A stretch of 64,000 nt of DNA from Clostridia bacterium (GTDB lineage: Bacteria > Bacillota > Clostridia > Oscillospirales > CAG-272). Shown here one piece after another: positions 10,149 to 35,855 of this stretch. Location: NCBI GenBank assembly GCA_017428635.1, contig JAFRQK010000007.1, positions 31,900-95,899 of the forward strand, read 5' to 3'. Each line of letters opens with the position of its first letter. Positions within the stretch are counted from its first letter, which is position 1. A program made the position numbers and the translations under genes. Under the pieces are notes generated by a model that saw only the letters and a program-made list of their open reading frames with translations, searched no databases and was not told where the DNA came from.

Positions 10149-10183
10149 TCCCGCTCCGGCTGTCGCCGGAGCGGGATCTTTTT
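10149..10183. terminator. Intrinsic terminator between convergent aqpZ and hom
   Basis: 12-bp stem 10149-10160 / 10165-10176 with TGTC loop, followed on the plus strand by TCTTTTTA. The 3' end overlaps the hom stop codon, so it also lies at the end of the opposing operon. Confidence 0.85.
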
Positions 10184-11402
10184 ATTCGGCAAGTCTGATA
10201 ACGCTTTCGACGTCGTCTCTTGAGGCGACGAACGCTTTGAGCTCCTTTCCCGACGCCTCCCCGCAGATGAATTCCGCCTTTCCTGCGGGAGAGCCCGGCA
10301 CGGGCTCGACTTTGTCGAAATAGCGGGAGAGATCCTCCCCGGCGTCGGAGGGCGAGACGCCCGCGAGCCTGATATAGTATGAGAAGCGGACTCTGTCGAA
10401 ATCGGCGACGGATCCGCTCTTTTTAGTGAAGACCGGCGCGCATTCCGCGGCCGCCGCTCCGGAGAGTGCGGCGACGATATCTGCCGTGACCGCTCCCGCG
10501 GTCGGGAAACGGCCCGCGCCGCGGCCGTAGAACATAACGTCTCCGGTGACGGAACACCTGACGCGGATCGCGTTGTAGACGTCGTTGACTCCCGCGAGGA
10601 TATCGTCTTTTTTCACCATCTGCGGGCAGACGAAGATCGCCGGGGACCCTTTTTCATACCGGAAAGAGCCGATGAGTTTTATCACGCGCCCCGCTCTTTC
10701 GGCGGCTGATACGTCCTCGGGAGCGATCCCGCGGATCGACTCCGCGTAAACGTCGCCGTCGTCGGGCAGAGTTCCCGTCGCGAGCGCGGAAAGGATCATG
10801 ATTTTGCGCTTTGCGTCGATCCCGTCGACGTCGGCGGAGGGATCGCGCTCCGCGTAACCGAGCACCTGCGCCTCTTTCAGCACGTCGGAAAAGGCGCGTT
10901 TCTCGCTTTTCATTTTGGAGAGGATAAAGTTTGTCGTTCCGTTGAGGATGCCGCTTATCCCGACGACCGTATCGCCCGAGAGGGACGTCAGGAACGGTCT
11001 TATTACGGGGATCCCGCCGCCGACGCTCGCCTCAAAGAGGTACGACACGCCGTTCTCCCCGGCGCGGGCGAGAAGACGGTCGCCGAAGTTCGCGACGACT
11101 TCCTTGTTCGACGTGACCACGTGCTTGCCGCGCGAGAGCGCTTCCATACTAAGCTCGAAAGCCGGGTGGGAGCCGCCCATCGTCTCCGCGACGAGACAGA
11201 CGTCGGGATCGTCCATGATCACCGACGCGTCGTGAACGACCCTTCCGCCGTACGGCGAGTCGGGAAAGTCGCGCAGATCGAGTATGTATTTTACGTCGAC
11301 TTCGTCGCCGACGGCGCGGGCGATCGCCTCGCGGTTCTCCTCGATGACCGAGGTGACGCCGCCTCCGACGACACCGTATCCGAATATAGCTATGTGCTTC
11401 AT
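10182..11402 (-). CDS. hom: Homoserine dehydrogenase
   Basis: NAD(P)H-dependent reduction of aspartate semialdehyde to homoserine, towards threonine and methionine. The N-terminal Rossmann loop is 'IFGYGVVGGGV', the conserved substrate region includes 'SYLFEASVGGGIPVI' and 'GILNGTTNFILSKM', and 'AERDPSADVDG' holds the catalytic Asp/Lys region. The last about 80 residues fit a C-terminal ACT-like regulatory domain. Length 406 aa. The start codon overlaps the DUF5662 gene stop by 4 nt, and it is the last gene of the operon behind the glycyl radical enzymes. Confidence 0.95.
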   Translation of the reverse strand: MKHIAIFGYGVVGGGVTSVIEENREAIARAVGDEVDVKYILDLRDFPDSPYGGRVVHDASVIMDDPDVCLVAETMGGSHPAFELSMEALSRGKHVVTSNKEVVANFGDRLLARAGENGVSYLFEASVGGGIPVIRPFLTSLSGDTVVGISGILNGTTNFILSKMKSEKRAFSDVLKEAQVLGYAERDPSADVDGIDAKRKIMILSALATGTLPDDGDVYAESIRGIAPEDVSAAERAGRVIKLIGSFRYEKGSPAIFVCPQMVKKDDILAGVNDVYNAIRVRCSVTGDVMFYGRGAGRFPTAGAVTADIVAALSGAAAAECAPVFTKKSGSVADFDRVRFSYYIRLAGVSPSDAGEDLSRYFDKVEPVPGSPAGKAEFICGEASGKELKAFVASRDDVESVIRLAE

Positions 11403-11974
11403 TTTTCGGGGCTGCCTTTCAGTTTTTTCGCGCGGCGCGCTTCTTTTTCCTCGCGCTTCGCTTTTTTGACTTCCGCGCGGATCTGTGCGAATGCCGTTTT
11501 TTCTCCTTTTTCCGCGAGCAGGCGGAGCCGTCTTTCGAGATCGTCCGCCGTGTCCGGGTGCATTTTAGCTCTCGCGTTTCCGCGGAGAAAATAGTTGAGA
11601 GGATCCGCGTCGGTATATTCTTTTCCCCGGTAGACTTTGCTTGCTCCGACTCTGTCGCAGAACATCTCGACGGCGAAGACCGTCGGCATCCTGACCGGTT
11701 CGTAGCGGTGAGTTTGCATATTCACGTCGTTCCAGTACTCGAAGTGATGGCGGTTCCTGCCCTTGTGGTGCAGCCACGCTTTCGAGTAGCCGAAAAGTTC
11801 GCGCTCCCGCTCGTTCGGACTTCTGTTCCCCTGATAGTACCGTATCCCGGGGATCAGTTCGGTCGGCGAGTATTTCGACAGATCGTGGACGAGCCCCCGC
11901 CAGGGGATCCCGGCGCAAAAACAGTTTTTCCTGACCGCCCGTCTGTGTCTGATTACCGTGAGAATGTGACCCAT
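11399..11974 (-). CDS. DUF5662 family protein
   Basis: 191 aa, recognised by 'LVHDLSKYSPTELIP', 'AWLHHKGRNRHHFEYW' and 'MPTVFAVEMFCDRVGAS', a His/Asp-rich pattern typical of DUF5662, for which no function is known to me. The HD and HH pairs suggest a metal site (inference). The C-terminus is Lys/Arg/Glu rich and probably a disordered or coiled tail. It begins 7 nt after the upstream glycyl radical enzyme without a clear ribosome site and overlaps hom by 4 nt, so it is translated within that operon. Confidence 0.8.
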   Translation of the reverse strand: MGHILTVIRHRRAVRKNCFCAGIPWRGLVHDLSKYSPTELIPGIRYYQGNRSPNERERELFGYSKAWLHHKGRNRHHFEYWNDVNMQTHRYEPVRMPTVFAVEMFCDRVGASKVYRGKEYTDADPLNYFLRGNARAKMHPDTADDLERRLRLLAEKGEKTAFAQIRAEVKKAKREEKEARRAKKLKGSPEK

Positions 11975-11981
11975 TTTGTTT

Positions 11982-14222
11982 TTACGCGTAACGCTTGATG
12001 AATTCGTCCTGCGTCTCCTTGCTGAATTCGATGAACTTCATCGAGAAGCCGCCCACGCGGACGATGAGGTCCTCGTGCGCTTCGGGATGGATCTGCGCGT
12101 CCTTCATATCCTCGAGCGGAGCCGTCGTGATCTGCGCCAGCTGACCGCCCGTCTCGGAAAACGTCTTCATGAGGGAGATGATGTTTTCTCTCATCTCCTC
12201 GGTCGCCGTCATCGTCGTCGGGATGAGAACGTTGCACGTCGTGCCGCCGATCCCGAGTTTCAGGGGCATGCGGGCGACGGACGAGAGCATCGCGGTCAGA
12301 CCGTTCTTGTCCGATCCCGTTCTCGGTCCGATCGTGTTGCCGAGCGCTTCTCCCGCGCGTCTGCCGTCGGGAAGAGCCCACGTTCCGTTACCGTAGCCGA
12401 TGCCCGCTTCGAGCAGCGAGCAGGCGCCGGTGAACACGTCTCCGCGGATCGATTTGTATTTGCCGATCTCACGCCAGAACTGCTCGAGGACGCGCGCCGC
12501 CATCTCGTCGGCTCCGTCGTCGTTGTTGCCGTACTTCGGGGCGGAAAGAAGCATCCTGCGGACGTCCTCGCGGCCCTCGAAGTTGCAAAGGAGCGCCTCG
12601 TAGACCTCCTCGAGCGTGAGTTTTTTCTGTTCGTAAACGAGCGTCTTGAGTGCGTAAAGCGAGTCGGAGACGGCGGCGTTTCCCGCGGTCTCGACGACGC
12701 CGAAGTTGTATATCGTGCCGCCTTCGTCGTGCTGGAGCCCGCGCTCGATGCACGCCTCGGTCATCGTCGACTTGACGAGCTTGGACACGTTGGCGATCCT
12801 CTTCATCTGACCCATGTTGCACAGATCGCAGAAGATCGGGGTGAAGTATTCGATCTCTTTCACGTACGCCGCCCAGAGGTCGTCGAACGTCTTATAATCG
12901 GTGAGGCGTCCGAGATCGAGGCCGACTTTGTAGTTCACGGGCATATCGAGGCCGTTGAAGAGAGCGAACTCGAGGATCTTCGCGAGGTTGATCGAGCCGT
13001 CCTCGCATCCGAAGTTGCTCTTTCCGGGGATCTCTATCTCCTGACATCCGAGGATCGAGTAGTCGCGCGCGTCGCGAAGCGGCACGCCGTACTCGCAGAG
13101 GCCTTCGACGGCGTTCTTGTCGGACGCGATCGTCGGGTCGGACATACCCTCCGACCACATCAGGACGACGAGCTGCCACAGTTCGTGCGGGGTGCCCTCG
13201 TGGACCCTGACCGTCATTCTCGGGTGCGTCTCGTGCATCGTTCTCATGATGCGCAGGACCTGATAGGTGATCTCGTTCGTCGCGTCTTCTCCCGTCTCGG
13301 GGACGACGCCGGAGATCGTCATGTTGTGGACGCCGTGCTCCCACGTTTTCATGAAGAGTGCGGCGAGAGTGTCGAGATCTTCCTCTCCGCGCCAGAACGG
13401 ATACATATACTGGTCGAATCTGCCGATGCAGTCGACCCAGTCCCAAAGGCAGTAGAACCACATCAGCTGTGCCGCCTCGAGGAACGTTTCGGGTTTCTCA
13501 TGCGCGACCTTGCGGCAGGTTTTCTCTATCGTGAGGAGCTGCTCTTTTTTCTCTCCGTCCGCTTCGGCGGCAAGGAGCGCCGCCTTGTCGGCGTGGAGTT
13601 CTATCCAGCGGCTCATGCCGTCGATGATTATGCGGCACGCCCTGTAAAAGTCTCGTCTTTTGGTATCGAACGGGTCGGCTTTGGCGTCGTATTCGTCGAT
13701 CTGCGCCATGACGCCGTCCAGACCCATCGAGAGGAGTTTCGGATAGTTCGAGACCGTGTGGCCCTGATATCCGCCGGTCCACCAGAGGCGTTCCGTCGCG
13801 TACCTGTACGCGGTATCGTCGCCGAATCTGCGTCTTCCCTCTTCGTGCATCGGCTCGGACGTTCTGGGCACGAGAAGGGGACGGAGACGCTCGGTGCGCT
13901 CGTCCGCCTCTTCAATACAGATACCCGCGCTGAAATGCTCGTAGATCGGACGTTCCGGCCGCGGGAATCCGACGAGGATGTCGTCCTCGAAGAACGGGAT
14001 CTCCGAGACGAGCCACGAGTCGACGATGCCGTGCGCCTCGCGGATGATATACGGCTCGTCCGCGTATTTTTCGAAAGCGTCCTCGAACGGTCTCTTGCCG
14101 TCGTTCGGGAACCCGGTGTGGGTACCCTCCCTGACTCGGTTCGGTTTCAGGCGAACTTTGACGCCCTCGTAAATATTTTTGACTCTTCCCTCAAACACGT
14201 ACTTTTCAAAAATATCGGTCAT
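11982..14222 (-). CDS. Glycyl radical enzyme, PFL/dehydratase superfamily, copy 1
   Basis: Anaerobic radical enzyme of unknown substrate, 746 aa. The active-site finger shows 'GCQEIEIPG' with Cys393 and Glu395 (GCxE, as in dehydratase/decarboxylase members; true pyruvate formate-lyases have a CC pair). The C-terminal radical loop is 'RVGGFSMKF' with Gly725 expected to carry the radical, followed by 'ETQDEFIKRYA', the usual GRE end. The N-terminal 'REAHGIVDSWLVSEIP...DDILVGF' matches the superfamily entry region. It lies 19 nt behind its paralogue, with AAGGAGA before the ATG. A radical SAM activating enzyme is required but none is in the window. Substrate cannot be named from sequence. Confidence 0.88.
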   Translation of the reverse strand: MTDIFEKYVFEGRVKNIYEGVKVRLKPNRVREGTHTGFPNDGKRPFEDAFEKYADEPYIIREAHGIVDSWLVSEIPFFEDDILVGFPRPERPIYEHFSAGICIEEADERTERLRPLLVPRTSEPMHEEGRRRFGDDTAYRYATERLWWTGGYQGHTVSNYPKLLSMGLDGVMAQIDEYDAKADPFDTKRRDFYRACRIIIDGMSRWIELHADKAALLAAEADGEKKEQLLTIEKTCRKVAHEKPETFLEAAQLMWFYCLWDWVDCIGRFDQYMYPFWRGEEDLDTLAALFMKTWEHGVHNMTISGVVPETGEDATNEITYQVLRIMRTMHETHPRMTVRVHEGTPHELWQLVVLMWSEGMSDPTIASDKNAVEGLCEYGVPLRDARDYSILGCQEIEIPGKSNFGCEDGSINLAKILEFALFNGLDMPVNYKVGLDLGRLTDYKTFDDLWAAYVKEIEYFTPIFCDLCNMGQMKRIANVSKLVKSTMTEACIERGLQHDEGGTIYNFGVVETAGNAAVSDSLYALKTLVYEQKKLTLEEVYEALLCNFEGREDVRRMLLSAPKYGNNDDGADEMAARVLEQFWREIGKYKSIRGDVFTGACSLLEAGIGYGNGTWALPDGRRAGEALGNTIGPRTGSDKNGLTAMLSSVARMPLKLGIGGTTCNVLIPTTMTATEEMRENIISLMKTFSETGGQLAQITTAPLEDMKDAQIHPEAHEDLIVRVGGFSMKFIEFSKETQDEFIKRYA

Positions 14223-14241
14223 GGTCTTCTCCTTATTCCGC

Positions 14242-16494
14242 TTATTCCGCCGAACCGGCGTACCTCATTATAAACTCGTTCTGGGTCTCGACGTCGAAGT
14301 CGATGAACTTCATCGAGAAACCGCCCAGCCTGACGATCAGATCCCCGTGATCCTCGGGGTGGATCTGCGCGTCCTTCATATCCTCGAGCGGAGCCGTCGT
14401 GATCTGCGCGAGCTGGCCTCCCGTCTCGGAGAACGTCTTCATCAGGGAGATGATATTCTCTCTGTTCTCCTCCGTCGCCGTCATCGTCGTCGGGATCAGA
14501 ACGTTGCACGTCGTGCCGCCTACGCCGAGGTGCAGAGGCATCTTCGCGACGGACGAGAGCATCGCGGTCAGACCGTTTTTGTCCGATCCGGTCCTCGGGC
14601 CGATCGTGTTTCCGAGCGGGTCGCCTTTGTGCCGTCCGTCGGCCATCGCCCACGTGCCTTTTCCGTATTCGATGCCGCCGCCGAGCAGCGAGCACGCTCC
14701 GGTGAACACGTCGCCGCGGCGGGATCTGTATTTTCTTATCTCGGACCAGAACTGTCCGAGAACGCGCGCCGCCATCTCGTCCGCGCCCTCGTCGTTGTTG
14801 CCGAACTTCGGGACACAAAGGAGCATCCTGCGGATATCCTCACGCCCCTCGAAGTCCGAGAGCAGAGCGTCGTAGACTTCTTCGAGCGTCAGTTTCTTCT
14901 GTTCGTAAACGAGCGTCTTGAGAGCGAACAGCGAATCGGCGACGGCGCCGTGGCCCGCCGTCTCGACGACGCCGTAATTGTAGACGGTGCCGCCCTCGTC
15001 GTGCTGCAGACCGCGCTCGATACACGCCTCGGTCATCGTCGACTTGACGAGCTTTGACACGTTTGCGACGCGGCGGTCTACGCCGATGTTGCAGCAGTCG
15101 CAGAACATCTCCGTTATATATTCGACCTCTTTGACGTACGCCTCCCAGAGGCCGTCGAAGGTCTTGTAGTCGGTGAGCCGTCCGAGATCAAGACCGCACT
15201 TCACTCCCGTGATCATATCGCGGCCGTTGAAAAGCGTATATTCGAGGATCTTCGCGAGGTTGATCGAACCGTCCTCGCAGCCGAAGTTGCTTTTTCCGGG
15301 TATCTCTATCTCCTGACAGCCGAGGACCGAGTAATCGCGCGCGTCGCGAAGCGGCACGCCGTAGCCCATAAGGCCGTTTATCGCGTTTTTGTCCGAAGCG
15401 ATCGTCGGATCGGACATACCCTCCGACCACATCAGGACGATGAGTCCCCAAAGGTCGTGAGGCGTTCCCTCGTGGACCCTGACCGTCATCCTCGGATGCG
15501 TTTCGTGCATCGTTCTCATGATGCGGAGCGTGTGATACGTTATATCGTTCGTCGCGTCCTCGCCCGTTTCGGGGACGACGCCTCCGACCGTCATGTTGTG
15601 CACGCCGTGCTCCCACGTCTTCATGAAGATCGCCGCGAGAGTATCGAGGTCTTCCTCCCCGCGCCAGAACGGATACATATACTGATCGAATCTGCCGACG
15701 CAGTCGACCCAGTCCCAAAGGCAAAAGAACCACATCAGCTGTGCCGCCTCGAGGAACGTTTCGGGAACTTCGTGCGCGACCTTGCGGCAGGTCTTCTCTA
15801 TCGTGAGGAGCTGCTCTTTTTTCTCTCCGTCCGCTTCGGCGGCGAGGAGCGCCGCCTTGTCGGCGTGGAGTTCTATCCAGCGGCTCATGCCGTCGATTAT
15901 GATGCGGCACGCCCTGTAAAAGTCTCGTTTTTTGGTATCGGACGGGTCGGCCTTTGCGTCGTATTCGTCGATCTGCGCCATGACGCCGTCGAGACCCATC
16001 GAGAGGAGTTTCGGGTACGACGGGACCGTGTGGCCCTGATATCCGCCCGTCCACCAGAGGGTCGCGTTCATCGCGCCGCACCTCTCGCCGTCGCCGACTC
16101 TTTCGGCGCTCCTTCTCTGCATCTCGTCGTATGAGAAGGGGACCATCTCGTCCGAGAGCCGCTCCGTTCTTTCGTCGCCGCCCTCTATCGTGATCCCGCG
16201 GCAGAAATGCTCGTAAACGGGACGGCACGGGCGCGGGAATCCTACGATGATATCGCCCTCGAAAAACGGGATCTCCGAGACGAGCCACGACTCGACGATG
16301 CCGTACGCCTCGCGGACGATATACGGCTCGTTTGCGTATTTCTCGAACATATCCTCGAAGGGAGTCTTCCCGTCGTCCGGGAATCCGGTGTACGTGCCTT
16401 CTCTTTCGTCGTGAGATTTGAGACGCGCCCGGACTCCTTTATATATTTCGCCCACTCTTCCGGTGAACTCGAATCTTTCGAAAACGTCTTTCAT
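14242..16494 (-). CDS. Glycyl radical enzyme, PFL/dehydratase superfamily, copy 2
   Basis: 750-aa paralogue of the following gene, colinear over its whole length with long identical stretches. Catalytic Cys393 and Glu395 sit in the same 'GCQEIEIPG' motif; the radical loop is 'RLGGFSMKF' with Gly725 (Leu replaces the usual Val of RVxGY/F). The two copies differ most in the N-terminal 150 residues and around 410-480, and this copy ends in 'RYAGSAE'. GGAGG precedes the ATG. First gene of the operon, behind a consensus promoter. It may act on a related substrate or form a heterodimer with copy 1 (inference); no activase gene is visible. Confidence 0.88.
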   Translation of the reverse strand: MKDVFERFEFTGRVGEIYKGVRARLKSHDEREGTYTGFPDDGKTPFEDMFEKYANEPYIVREAYGIVESWLVSEIPFFEGDIIVGFPRPCRPVYEHFCRGITIEGGDERTERLSDEMVPFSYDEMQRRSAERVGDGERCGAMNATLWWTGGYQGHTVPSYPKLLSMGLDGVMAQIDEYDAKADPSDTKKRDFYRACRIIIDGMSRWIELHADKAALLAAEADGEKKEQLLTIEKTCRKVAHEVPETFLEAAQLMWFFCLWDWVDCVGRFDQYMYPFWRGEEDLDTLAAIFMKTWEHGVHNMTVGGVVPETGEDATNDITYHTLRIMRTMHETHPRMTVRVHEGTPHDLWGLIVLMWSEGMSDPTIASDKNAINGLMGYGVPLRDARDYSVLGCQEIEIPGKSNFGCEDGSINLAKILEYTLFNGRDMITGVKCGLDLGRLTDYKTFDGLWEAYVKEVEYITEMFCDCCNIGVDRRVANVSKLVKSTMTEACIERGLQHDEGGTVYNYGVVETAGHGAVADSLFALKTLVYEQKKLTLEEVYDALLSDFEGREDIRRMLLCVPKFGNNDEGADEMAARVLGQFWSEIRKYRSRRGDVFTGACSLLGGGIEYGKGTWAMADGRHKGDPLGNTIGPRTGSDKNGLTAMLSSVAKMPLHLGVGGTTCNVLIPTTMTATEENRENIISLMKTFSETGGQLAQITTAPLEDMKDAQIHPEDHGDLIVRLGGFSMKFIDFDVETQNEFIMRYAGSAE

Positions 16495-16570: not shown

Positions 16571-16599
16571 ATTATATACCTTAATAAGGCGCGTGTCAA
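16571..16599 (-). promoter_or_regulatory. Sigma-A promoter of the glycyl radical enzyme operon
   Basis: Minus-strand -35 TTGACA (16599-16594), 17-nt spacer, -10 TATAAT (16576-16571); perfect consensus. Leader to the first GRE gene is about 70 nt. No operator could be assigned. Confidence 0.88.
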
Positions 16600-33939: not shown

Positions 33940-35855
33940 CCGTTGCTGCGCTCCGGATCTTCCTCGCCGTCCTCGGAATCGGCCTCTTCGGAATCGGTCT
34001 CGGTTTCCGTTTCGGTGTCGGTATCGTCCGATTCAGGCTCGGAGGAACTCTCTTCGGGCTGTTTACCGCTCGTTTCCGAAGAATCGGTGATCTTGTCGAT
34101 GGGGGAAAGAGTTATCGGGGTATCCGAATCCGGTTCGCTCCCGTCGCTGTCCGAATCCTCGGAGTCGTCGGAGATCGCGCCTTTGCCGTACTTCGGGCCT
34201 CCGCTTACGTTAAGGTCGATCGGAGTGTGGGCGGTCACCATCGTGCCCGGAAGTATGCTCTGGGCGATGATCGTCCCGGAGTCCTTGTCGGACCGTTCGT
34301 AGATCACGTTTCCGGCGGACAGGCGCAGTCTCGCGAGGAGCAGGAGCGCTTCGGATTCCGTCTTTCCCGTAAAGTCGGGCACGGAAATATCGCCTTCTTC
34401 GGGCCCGCGGCTGACGAACAGGATTATACTGTCTCCGCTTCCGACGACCGAACCGGATTCGGGATCGGTCGCTACGACGTATCCGATCTCGATCGAGTCG
34501 TCAAACACCTTTTCGACGGTGCAGATGAGGCCGAGGGAACGGAGTTCGGAGACGACGAGACGGTAATCTCTCACGGAAAAATCCCCGAGGGTGAGTTTTT
34601 GCTCACCCCCGCTGACGACAAGCTTGATTTTACACGGCTTTTTGCCGCGCTGGACTTTCTTTCTCACGCCCTCCGACGGGGACTGCTCCATTATCGTTCC
34701 TTGCGGAACGGTCCCGCTGTATTTGTATTCGACGTCGGCGACCGTGTAGTATTCCGATTTCTCGAACCATTCCTTCAGTTCGTCGGAATAGACTGTGTTT
34801 ACGAAATTCTCGACCGTTATCGTCTCGTATCCGACCTGAGAGGAACTGTTGAAAACGTTGTTGAAGATATAGAGCCCCGCGATCACGAAGACGATCAGAA
34901 AGGATGTGAACACTCCCATTATCATGGGAAACATCGCGCGTCCTTTTTTCTTTTTGCGGAATTTCGAGGAGAAGAACTTCCTGATCTTCTCCGCGGGGGA
35001 CGGTTTGAAGATGATATTCGGGTTTTCTCTCAATTTAACGAGGTGTGAGAGCATCTGCGACGCGCTCTGATATCGCACGTTCGGATCCTTCTCCATCGCC
35101 CTCATTATTATCTGCTCGAGCCCTTCGGGGATGTGCGAGTTGACCTCGCGCGGAGCCGCGGGCGTGTCGTTCACCTGCATCAGCGCGACGGAGACGGGGG
35201 ATTCCGCGTCGAACGGCAGGGAGCCGGTGCTCATCTCATACATCATCGCGCCGAGCGAGTATAGGTCGGAACGCGCGTCGATCTGCTCGCCGCTCGCCTG
35301 CTCGGGGCTGATGTAGTAGACGGTGCCTATCGCTTTGTCCGACATCGTCACGGTGTCCGTGTTGGGCAGCTTGGCGATGCCGAAGTCCATCACTTTGATC
35401 ACGCCGCTCTTCAGCAGCATGATGTTCTGCGGCTTGATGTCGCGGTGGACGATCCCTTTCTGGTGCGCGTGTTCGAGCGCCTTGAGGATCTGGATCGAGT
35501 AGCCGACGACCTCCTTGAAGCTGAGGACCTGACGGCGGGTGATGTAGCTCTTGAGGGTGATCCCCTCGATATACTCCATCACGATGTATTTTACGTTGTC
35601 CCTGACGGAGACGTCGTATATATTGACGATGTTGGGATGCGAAAGCATCGCGACCGCCTTCGATTCGTTGATGAACCGCATGACGGACGGCTCGTCCGTC
35701 GCCATGTCGTCTTTGAGGATCTTGACGGCGACGACGCGGCGCATGAGCATATCGATCGCTTTGTAGACGACGGCCATTCCGCCGACGCCTATGAGGTTTT
35801 CAATTTTATATCTGTTGTCGAATATCTGTCCGACGTATTTTTCGTAATTTTCCAT
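33936..35855 (-). CDS. prkC: Serine/threonine kinase PrkC with PASTA domains
   Basis: 639-aa membrane kinase sensing peptidoglycan. Kinase domain 15-270: glycine loop 'GVGGMAVVY', K45, 'HRDIKPQN' (138-145), DFG (158-160). A Lys/Arg-rich juxtamembrane stretch (about 297-307) precedes one TM segment (309-333). Three PASTA-like repeats span about 345-557 (the third begins 'SVPDFTGKTESEALLLL'). An extra tail (about 561-639) is nearly all Ser, Glu, Asp and Thr. Paired with phosphatase PrpC 17 nt upstream, the standard order. Confidence 0.95.
   Translation of the reverse strand: MENYEKYVGQIFDNRYKIENLIGVGGMAVVYKAIDMLMRRVVAVKILKDDMATDEPSVMRFINESKAVAMLSHPNIVNIYDVSVRDNVKYIVMEYIEGITLKSYITRRQVLSFKEVVGYSIQILKALEHAHQKGIVHRDIKPQNIMLLKSGVIKVMDFGIAKLPNTDTVTMSDKAIGTVYYISPEQASGEQIDARSDLYSLGAMMYEMSTGSLPFDAESPVSVALMQVNDTPAAPREVNSHIPEGLEQIIMRAMEKDPNVRYQSASQMLSHLVKLRENPNIIFKPSPAEKIRKFFSSKFRKKKKGRAMFPMIMGVFTSFLIVFVIAGLYIFNNVFNSSSQVGYETITVENFVNTVYSDELKEWFEKSEYYTVADVEYKYSGTVPQGTIMEQSPSEGVRKKVQRGKKPCKIKLVVSGGEQKLTLGDFSVRDYRLVVSELRSLGLICTVEKVFDDSIEIGYVVATDPESGSVVGSGDSIILFVSRGPEEGDISVPDFTGKTESEALLLLARLRLSAGNVIYERSDKDSGTIIAQSILPGTMVTAHTPIDLNVSGGPKYGKGAISDDSEDSDSDGSEPDSDTPITLSPIDKITDSSETSGKQPEESSSEPESDDTDTETETETDSEEADSEDGEEDPERSNG

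Follow-up and report, generated by a model that had tools for sequence, protein, structure and literature searches.

The window analysed here, a stretch of 64,000 nucleotides of contig JAFRQK010000007.1 from a Clostridia bacterium (GenBank assembly GCA_017428635.1), carries two tandem genes for glycyl radical enzymes (GREs). Our preferred interpretation, to which we assign a probability of roughly 0.57, is that they are two working GREs of an uncharacterised clade with eliminase-type chemistry, which would be activated in trans by a radical S-adenosylmethionine (SAM) activase encoded on another contig, C77, and would act on a substrate derived from a sugar or a polyol. The intactness of both enzymes, the clade, the activase locus devoid of a GRE and the kinship of that activase are established at the level of sequence comparison.

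Two intact enzymes of a separate clade

The two genes lie 19 bp apart on the minus strand (Table 1) and their products are identical at 606 of 746 positions (81%) in a gap-free alignment. They had been described, in a sequence-only reading of the window, as full-length GREs sharing Cys393, Glu395 and Gly725, and this description held in every detail: both are exact open reading frames (ORFs) free of internal stops, each contains the two expected Pfam domains (Gly_radical PF01228 scoring 65.2 bits in copy 1 and 62.3 bits in copy 2, for a cut-off of 22.2), and both copies have Cys393, Gln394, Glu395 and Gly725. On these matches the pair is assigned to the GRE superfamily. Nor are residues critical for activity missing, as far as sequence can tell, since neither copy deviates at any of the 134 columns that are nearly invariant over the 56 other sequences of the clade defined below.

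Table 1. Positions of the window gene pair, its neighbours and the two activase genes (window positions unless a contig is named)
Feature	Position	Strand	Basis
GRE copy 2, first gene of run, 750 aa	14242..16494	(-)	ORF; Pfam PFL-like E 1.2e-114, Gly_radical 7.3e-17
GRE copy 1, second gene of run, 746 aa	11982..14222	(-)	ORF; Pfam PFL-like E 1e-115, Gly_radical 9.3e-18
Cys393-Gln394-Glu395 codons (CXE Cys loop), copy 2	15310..15318	(-)	Arithmetic from start codon
Cys393-Gln394-Glu395 codons (CXE Cys loop), copy 1	13038..13046	(-)	Arithmetic from start codon
Gly725 codon, copy 2, presumed radical glycine, motif RLGGF	14320..14322	(-)	Arithmetic
Gly725 codon, copy 1, presumed radical glycine, motif RVGGF	12048..12050	(-)	Arithmetic
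Sigma-70-type promoter-like site TTGACA-17-TATAAT, 12/12, upstream of copy 2	16571..16599	(-)	Pattern match
DUF5662 protein, 191 aa, 7 bp behind copy 1	11399..11974	(-)	Pfam PF18907 E 4.7e-37
Homoserine dehydrogenase, 4 bp overlap with DUF5662	10182..11402	(-)	NCBIfam PRK06349 357.1 bits, cut-off 205
C57 activase, directly precedes second GRE pair	C57:24856-25713		TIGR02494
C77 activase	C77:34438-35391 (TIGR02494 match 34465-35322)	(-)	TIGR02494 347.6 bits; PF04055 60 bits; PF12837 (Fer4) 31.4 bits

We use the name GREA for the clade of window-type GREs and GREB for that of the GREs encoded on contig C57 of the same genome. In a tree of 80 GRE sequences, all 58 GREA sequences formed one group with a support of 100 in the Shimodaira-Hasegawa-like approximate likelihood ratio test (SH-aLRT). 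A reference tree, into which 12 of the 58 GREA and 4 of the 16 GREB sequences were taken (HypD, HplG, IslA and the decarboxylases were not included), again placed GREA in one group (100/100), sister to GREB (94/90) and separate from YbiW, PflD, glycerol dehydratase, the Pdu-type GRE, CutC and TdcE. Identity between GREA and the aligned references ranges from 21 to 31%, and none of them approaches 62%, the threshold which, in a study of IslA, served to group sequences likely to handle the same or similar substrates (PMC6386719). Profile searches gave the same picture: both copies fall far below the cut-off of every NCBIfam equivalog (HypD, CutC, HpfG/HpsG, indoleacetate and hydroxyphenylacetate decarboxylases, PRK09983 and pyruvate formate-lyase, PFL), the best of which is HypD (305.7 and 303.8 bits, cut-off 1100). 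Neither are they members of the PFL2-3 subfamily TIGR01774, where they score 405.7 and 372.3 bits against a cut-off of 678.2. HypD, trans-4-hydroxy-L-proline dehydratase, is the second-best NCBIfam match of both copies and, lying outside the trees, is set apart by profile score only; the isethionate sulfite-lyase IslA, a family with conserved Arg189, Gln193, Arg678 and Trp374, lies outside the alignments made and is matched through its PDB entry with a profile score of 289.7 bits. As far as tested, GREA thus appears to be an uncharacterised clade within a known superfamily, in agreement with the earlier statement that the pair has no link to a characterised GRE family. No work on the clade was found in the openly licensed text of PubMed Central, mostly titles and the beginnings of abstracts.

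Sampling of 395 genomes from the family of the source organism gave GREA in 44 of them (15 of 71 genera); of 394 genomes sampled across the order, 6 had it, 2 of these 6 belonging to another family. Since two candidates were scored per genome in these wide searches, the GREA copy numbers they give are lower bounds. All 12 genomes of the window's genus (G000, the window's own, to G011) match the GREA query, some by partial matches only. Ten GREA loci recovered in a genome scan all come from metagenome-assembled genomes: two from sheep omasum, one each from sheep rectum, goat rectum, goat rumen, roe deer rectum, water deer caecum and horse faeces, and two without a host in the title. The named relatives of the source bacterium are mostly from the herbivore gut. 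A viral scan gave no relative, none of its 19 pattern matches being confirmed, and all matches in plasmid and phage records (140 and 25, respectively) were below 60% identity.

A lone activase at a distant locus

The window genome consists of 2.27 Mb in 79 contigs and is 96% complete; the window lies on its contig C40. The sequence-only reading had noted that no activase is encoded in the 64 kb and had suggested that a distant one might serve the pair, for which the genome should be searched. None of the 12 matches to the activase profile TIGR02494 in the genome is on C40. Among 21 Radical_SAM matches, 3 are on C40 and the only one inside the window is RlmN, which was rejected as a hidden GRE activase once its family had been identified; a PflA-like protein on C19 was likewise rejected, being NrdG2, the activase of anaerobic ribonucleotide reductase. 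Absence of an activase from the neighbourhood does not, however, mean its absence from the genome. Two TIGR02494 matches exceed the cut-off of 174.35, one on C57 (328.6 bits) and one on C77 (Table 1). Gly_radical is matched four times in the genome, by the window pair and by another tandem pair on C57, so that all its GRE matches are on C40 and C57; no GRE is found in a 20 kb stretch around the C77 activase, which is an unpaired activase of the kind sought. It lies about 24 bp from a gene for a Gfo/Idh oxidoreductase on the same strand, within a 79 kb contig.

Activase linkage varies across the clade. At 22 of the 49 loci with full-length GREA, an activase gene precedes the GRE on the same strand at a distance of 25-137 bp (measured between hit boundaries); 24 loci lack one, and contig ends truncate the other 3. 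All but one of the 22 linked loci are outside the window's genus, where a further 12 loci are without an activase, and the genus itself shows the reverse: out of 23 GREA sequences, 18 have no adjoining activase, 4 are at contig edges and only 1, in G008, has an activase. Eight of the 12 genus genomes (G000, G002, G003, G004, G005, G007, G010 and G011) have instead a C77-type activase paired with a Gfo/Idh gene. The surroundings of this pair vary, with a gene that by eye looks like ffh nearby in six of the eight (not in G003 and G011). In G008, the Gfo/Idh gene, the activase, GREA and a GDSL esterase follow one another in a single run. Gene neighbours were taken from a codon-model gene caller, with which starts may be off and some genes missed (the GREA of locus L137, missed by the caller, was found by tblastn). 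Contig-cut or broken GREA genes of G002, G004, G005, G009, G208, G378 and G306, and part of those of G011, are outside both the trees and the 49 loci; GRE sequences shorter than 600 aa and activase sequences of 200 aa or less were left out of the trees. The G005 activase, an intact ORF, is counted among the eight and is absent from the trees.

The kinship of the C77 activase was analysed in two trees. In the first (43 sequences) the C77 type formed one group (100/98) that joined 10 activases encoded beside GREA (92/86). For the second (49 sequences), 13 loci were chosen from a set of 30, part of which repeats sequences of the first tree, and 12 entered; the E. coli activases and four other activases of the first tree were omitted. 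Here the C77 type and all 22 activases encoded beside GREA fell into one group of 36 sequences (100/100), separate from the C57-type activases adjacent to GREB. This group also includes the unlinked activases of G270, G370, G538 and G072, and one of G208 located beside GREA. Within it, the C77 type joins the unlinked activases of G270 and G370 (96/98), two genomes in which GREA likewise has no adjoining activase. We consider the C77 product, on this phylogeny, the likely activase of the window GREs from its distant locus; the proposal of a distant activase is supported, though not proven.

Several observations weigh against this assignment. A contig ends at or just behind the Gfo/Idh gene in G004 and G010, and about 1 kb upstream of the activase in G005, so that a GRE may lie just beyond in these three. 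When the E. coli and other activases are in the tree, the group of the C77 type and all 22 activases encoded beside GREA receives only 76/90, and the G008 activase, weakly sister to the C77 type in the first tree (89/68), shifts position in the second. The 36-sequence group is not purely GREA-serving, because it also has a second G072 activase (L186) and a G173 activase (L174) encoded beside a GRE that is only 29% like GREA. The histories of GRE and activase differ: in the GRE tree the window's GREA genes stand next to those of G104, not to those of G270 and G370, yet the sole activase match of G104 is outside the group. Also outside it are the best activases of G055, G262 and G378, as well as that of G131, a genome with its GREA at a contig edge; the best match of G350 is to the C57-type query and was not placed in a tree, and G306 has no activase match at 1e-45. 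Finally, no C77-type activase was seen in G001, G006 and G009, which are 55, 74 and 80% complete and in which not every activase was placed.

These points give some room to the reading that the C57 activase, alone or interchangeably with that of C77, serves the window pair and that the C77 enzyme has another client. The activase tree does not mirror that of the GREs, the best activase of several genomes with unlinked GREA falls outside the GREA-type group, GREA and GREB are sister clades, and in E. coli a single activase serves both PFL and TdcE. We regard this reading as possible but rather improbable, because the GREA-type activases are split from the C57 type with full support in the second tree, all 22 activases encoded beside GREA group with the C77 gene, and the C77 type is retained in two-thirds of the genus genomes with no GRE seen alongside (the nearby contig ends of G004, G005 and G010 notwithstanding). 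TdcE is at the same time the precedent for the preferred interpretation, as a GRE activated in trans by an unlinked PflA. It differs in having PFL-type chemistry, whereas here the split-activase layout occurs inside a CXE clade with an adjoining activase at 22 of 49 loci. What is new is a clade of a known superfamily with a distinct pocket and an unusual split-activase layout.

Active site, reaction and substrate

The Cys loop had been judged to fit GREs of the eliminase or decarboxylase type rather than PFL. A loop of the eliminase type, unlike that of PFL, is supported: the Cys-X-Glu (CXE) motif, in the form C-Q-E, is retained in 58 of 58 GREA sequences. His155, His299, Cys393, Glu395, Glu397, Cys406, Glu407, Asp408, Asp499, Glu511 and Gly725 are all invariant in the same 58. 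CXE is described as an eliminase feature (PMC8473560). The column of His155 has His in YbiW, PflD, the Pdu-type GRE and glycerol dehydratase, and Asp in CutC. A stretch of six residues before GRxDQY occurs in YbiW, PflD, CutC, the Pdu-type GRE, TdcE and glycerol dehydratase, with His and Ser in the YbiW, Pdu-type and glycerol dehydratase versions; GREA and GREB lack it, as does one other reference, an uncharacterised Persicobacter GRE. Given CXE, His155 and the missing stretch, GREA resembles an eliminase acting on a hydroxylated substrate, with a pocket of its own.

The best PDB match of the window GRE is the B12-independent glycerol dehydratase (1r8w; 275.1 bits, or 387.8 bits by profile), which, like GREA and the Pdu-type GRE, has CXE and His at the place of His155; the Pdu-type GRE is 28.8% identical to GREA, and GREA forms a clade separate from both (100/100) and lacks the six-residue stretch. 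YbiW and PflD, 1,5-anhydrohexitol-6-phosphate GREs (PMC12441222), share with GREA the CXE motif, His at this position and an activase beside the GRE, but are only 27.2 and 28.1% identical to it, fall into separate clades and possess the stretch missing in GREA. CutC, the choline TMA-lyase, is a CXE eliminase like GREA; it is 28.5% identical to it, has Asp in place of His155, and its model scores copy 1 at 295 bits against a cut-off of 1050.

The mechanism we propose would begin with formation of a glycyl radical at Gly725, in trans, by the C77 radical SAM activase. The radical would then pass to Cys393. With Glu395 binding the hydroxylated substrate, Cys393 would abstract a hydrogen from it and an adjacent group would be eliminated, as predicted from the chemistry of CXE eliminases. 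A sugar or polyol derivative is our guess for the substrate class.

That GREA catalyses a decarboxylation or some other GRE reaction in spite of CXE seems unlikely to us. Decarboxylase-type GREs also have C-x-E, and the six residues missing before GRxDQY mean that the pocket differs. The decarboxylase models, however, score copy 1 at only 203 and 182 bits, compared with 286-306 bits for the HypD, sulfopropanediol dehydratase, CutC and PRK09983 models, and His155 together with the acidic pocket residues would fit the binding of a hydroxyl.

Clues to the substrate come from gene neighbours. Esterases are a recurring element: one is encoded 21-27 bp upstream of GREA in G001 and G006 (its family was tested on the copy of G001), and the GREA runs of G008, G001 (L091), G104, G131 and G173 include GDSL or SGNH hydrolases. 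Outside the tight run, a GH36 alpha-galactosidase is found near the GREA array of G001, and xylose isomerase, xylulokinase, ThuA and Gfo/Idh genes near that of G006. The closest solved structure to the Gfo/Idh protein beside the GREA-type activase is the glycoside 3-oxidoreductase DgpA (PDB 9m3d, 7xr9), at 191.4 bits over residues 1-354, a distant match, and a DgpA-like activity of this protein is a prediction; the G008 protein scores 448.1 bits, again the best among solved structures. DgpA converts puerarin and other glycosides to 3-oxo products (PMC11239390). Taken together, the esterase, sugar-gene and DgpA-like neighbours point weakly to sugar-derived substrates.

Other observations pull the other way. 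Only the activase recurs widely beside GREA, and no other gene does. Gfo/Idh genes are common, and the eight genomes carrying the pair are relatives. PF19906, the beta subunit of the C-glycoside lyase, had no match in the 12 genomes; as the 14 controls gave no signal either, this does not show that it is missing. Elsewhere GREA lies among polysaccharide-synthesis-like, pyrimidine or peptidase genes.

In the genus, GREA was seen by eye within a run resembling a pyrimidine operon, flanked by a pyrF-like and a pyrE-like gene in G003 (L088 4414-15860) and G001 (L092), and before a pyrE-like gene at a contig end in G006 (L093). A hint of pyrimidine chemistry from this placement was rejected, as it concerns three genomes of one sub-clade only. 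At L129, L147, L153 and L156 (G262, G350, G378 and G306), an activase-free GREA is located directly behind flippase-like polysaccharide-synthesis and FrhB-like iron-sulfur genes, whose families were tested for the G262 copies and assigned by clustering for the others.

A bolder version of the preferred interpretation, which we hold to be doubtful, would make GREA a new family of radical eliminases dismantling plant glycosides or esterified sugars after a DgpA-like 3-oxidation in Clostridia of the herbivore gut, some lineages having expanded it into tandem arrays of paralogues diversified in substrate, all of them dependent on one distant activase kept with the oxidoreductase, a layout of a single activator and many enzymes. 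GREs perform difficult radical reactions, and several families opened up a gut pathway once their substrate was found, isethionate cleavage being an example (PMC6386719). GREA has a conserved pocket of its own, is spread over 15 of the 71 genera sampled in the family, and occurs in a genus where one genome, about 2.2 Mb in size, has 18 glycyl-radical matches. With the lone activase next to a DgpA-like oxidoreductase there is a specific partner that can be tested, and an initial pointer to the substrate.

Paralogues, neighbouring genes and other glycyl radical enzymes

Both window copies are under purifying selection, the ratio of non-synonymous to synonymous rates (dN/dS) to the G007 orthologue being 0.099 for copy 1 and 0.081 for copy 2. 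Identity between the copies is uneven: it is 64% over codons 1-50, 53% over codons 101-150 and 92-95% over codons 151-300, and over codons 201-250 the identity between paralogues (95%) exceeds that between orthologues. This pattern fits N-terminal divergence and hints at gene conversion in the middle of the genes. Expansion is more pronounced elsewhere in the genus, with arrays of four GREA genes in G001 (C21) and three in G006 (C15). PF01228 matches in G000 to G011 number 4, 13, 2, 6, 3, 3, 18, 5, 5, 4, 5 and 6, a total of 74 with fragments included; the 12 genomes together yield 31 TIGR02494 matches at 1e-30 or better, one gene contributing two of these as separate pieces.

Tandem placement 19 bp apart, retention of both orthologue pairs in G000 and G007, and the concentration of divergence in codons 1-50 and 101-150 would also suit subunits of an obligate heterodimer. 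We find this quite improbable, as every near-invariant residue is kept in both copies and 43 of the 49 loci have a single full-length GREA (others have 3 or 4), so that a heterodimer is not needed. That one or both copies are decaying, functionless duplicates is scarcely credible, redundancy being frequent in tandem duplicates but the conserved columns, the low dN/dS values and the uninterrupted frames all speaking against it.

The flanking genes were correctly named by the earlier reading, both DUF5662 and homoserine dehydrogenase being matched by their family profiles on the same strand as the pair (Table 1). DUF5662 adjoins GREA in five genomes, in one of which (G011) the GREA is a contig-cut fragment, and homoserine dehydrogenase adjoins it in four. 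When loci L094, L095, L097 and L086 were compared with the window, the DUF5662 gene of G011 was found next to the GREA fragment without an adjoining homoserine dehydrogenase gene. Homoserine dehydrogenase is probably a housekeeping neighbour. It was rejected as a pathway partner, having a single match in 10 of the 12 genus genomes and none found in G002 and G005; in G001, G003, G006, G008 and G009 it is on a different contig from GREA, and in G011 it is about 34 kb from the GREA fragment. Promoter-like sites number 3 in 7 kb, for a mean of 1.8 in shuffled sequences, which is no higher than chance; the perfect 12/12 match and the position of the site upstream of copy 2 are a suggestive hint of a promoter only.

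The second GRE pair of the window genome (L038 8154-10328 and 10539-12713, on C57), behind its own activase, carries Cys-Asn-Gln instead of CXE, and Gln replaces Glu in all 16 GREB sequences. Lacking the usual Glu, this clade may have a chemistry other than the usual elimination. On contig C72 of G007 (L117 1041-1957), the activase beside a GREB pair is split into two overlapping pieces with a stop, which is either an assembly error or real. Standalone glycyl radical domains of 58 residues in G006 (C15) and G011 (C52) were rejected, since both are cut by contig ends. Another type of GRE, at L111 8300-10147 (G008) and L108 239-2083 (G011), reads Cys-Gln-Asp in its Cys loop; its glycyl radical motif is RMWGVS, compared with RVAGYS or RVGGFS in other sequences.

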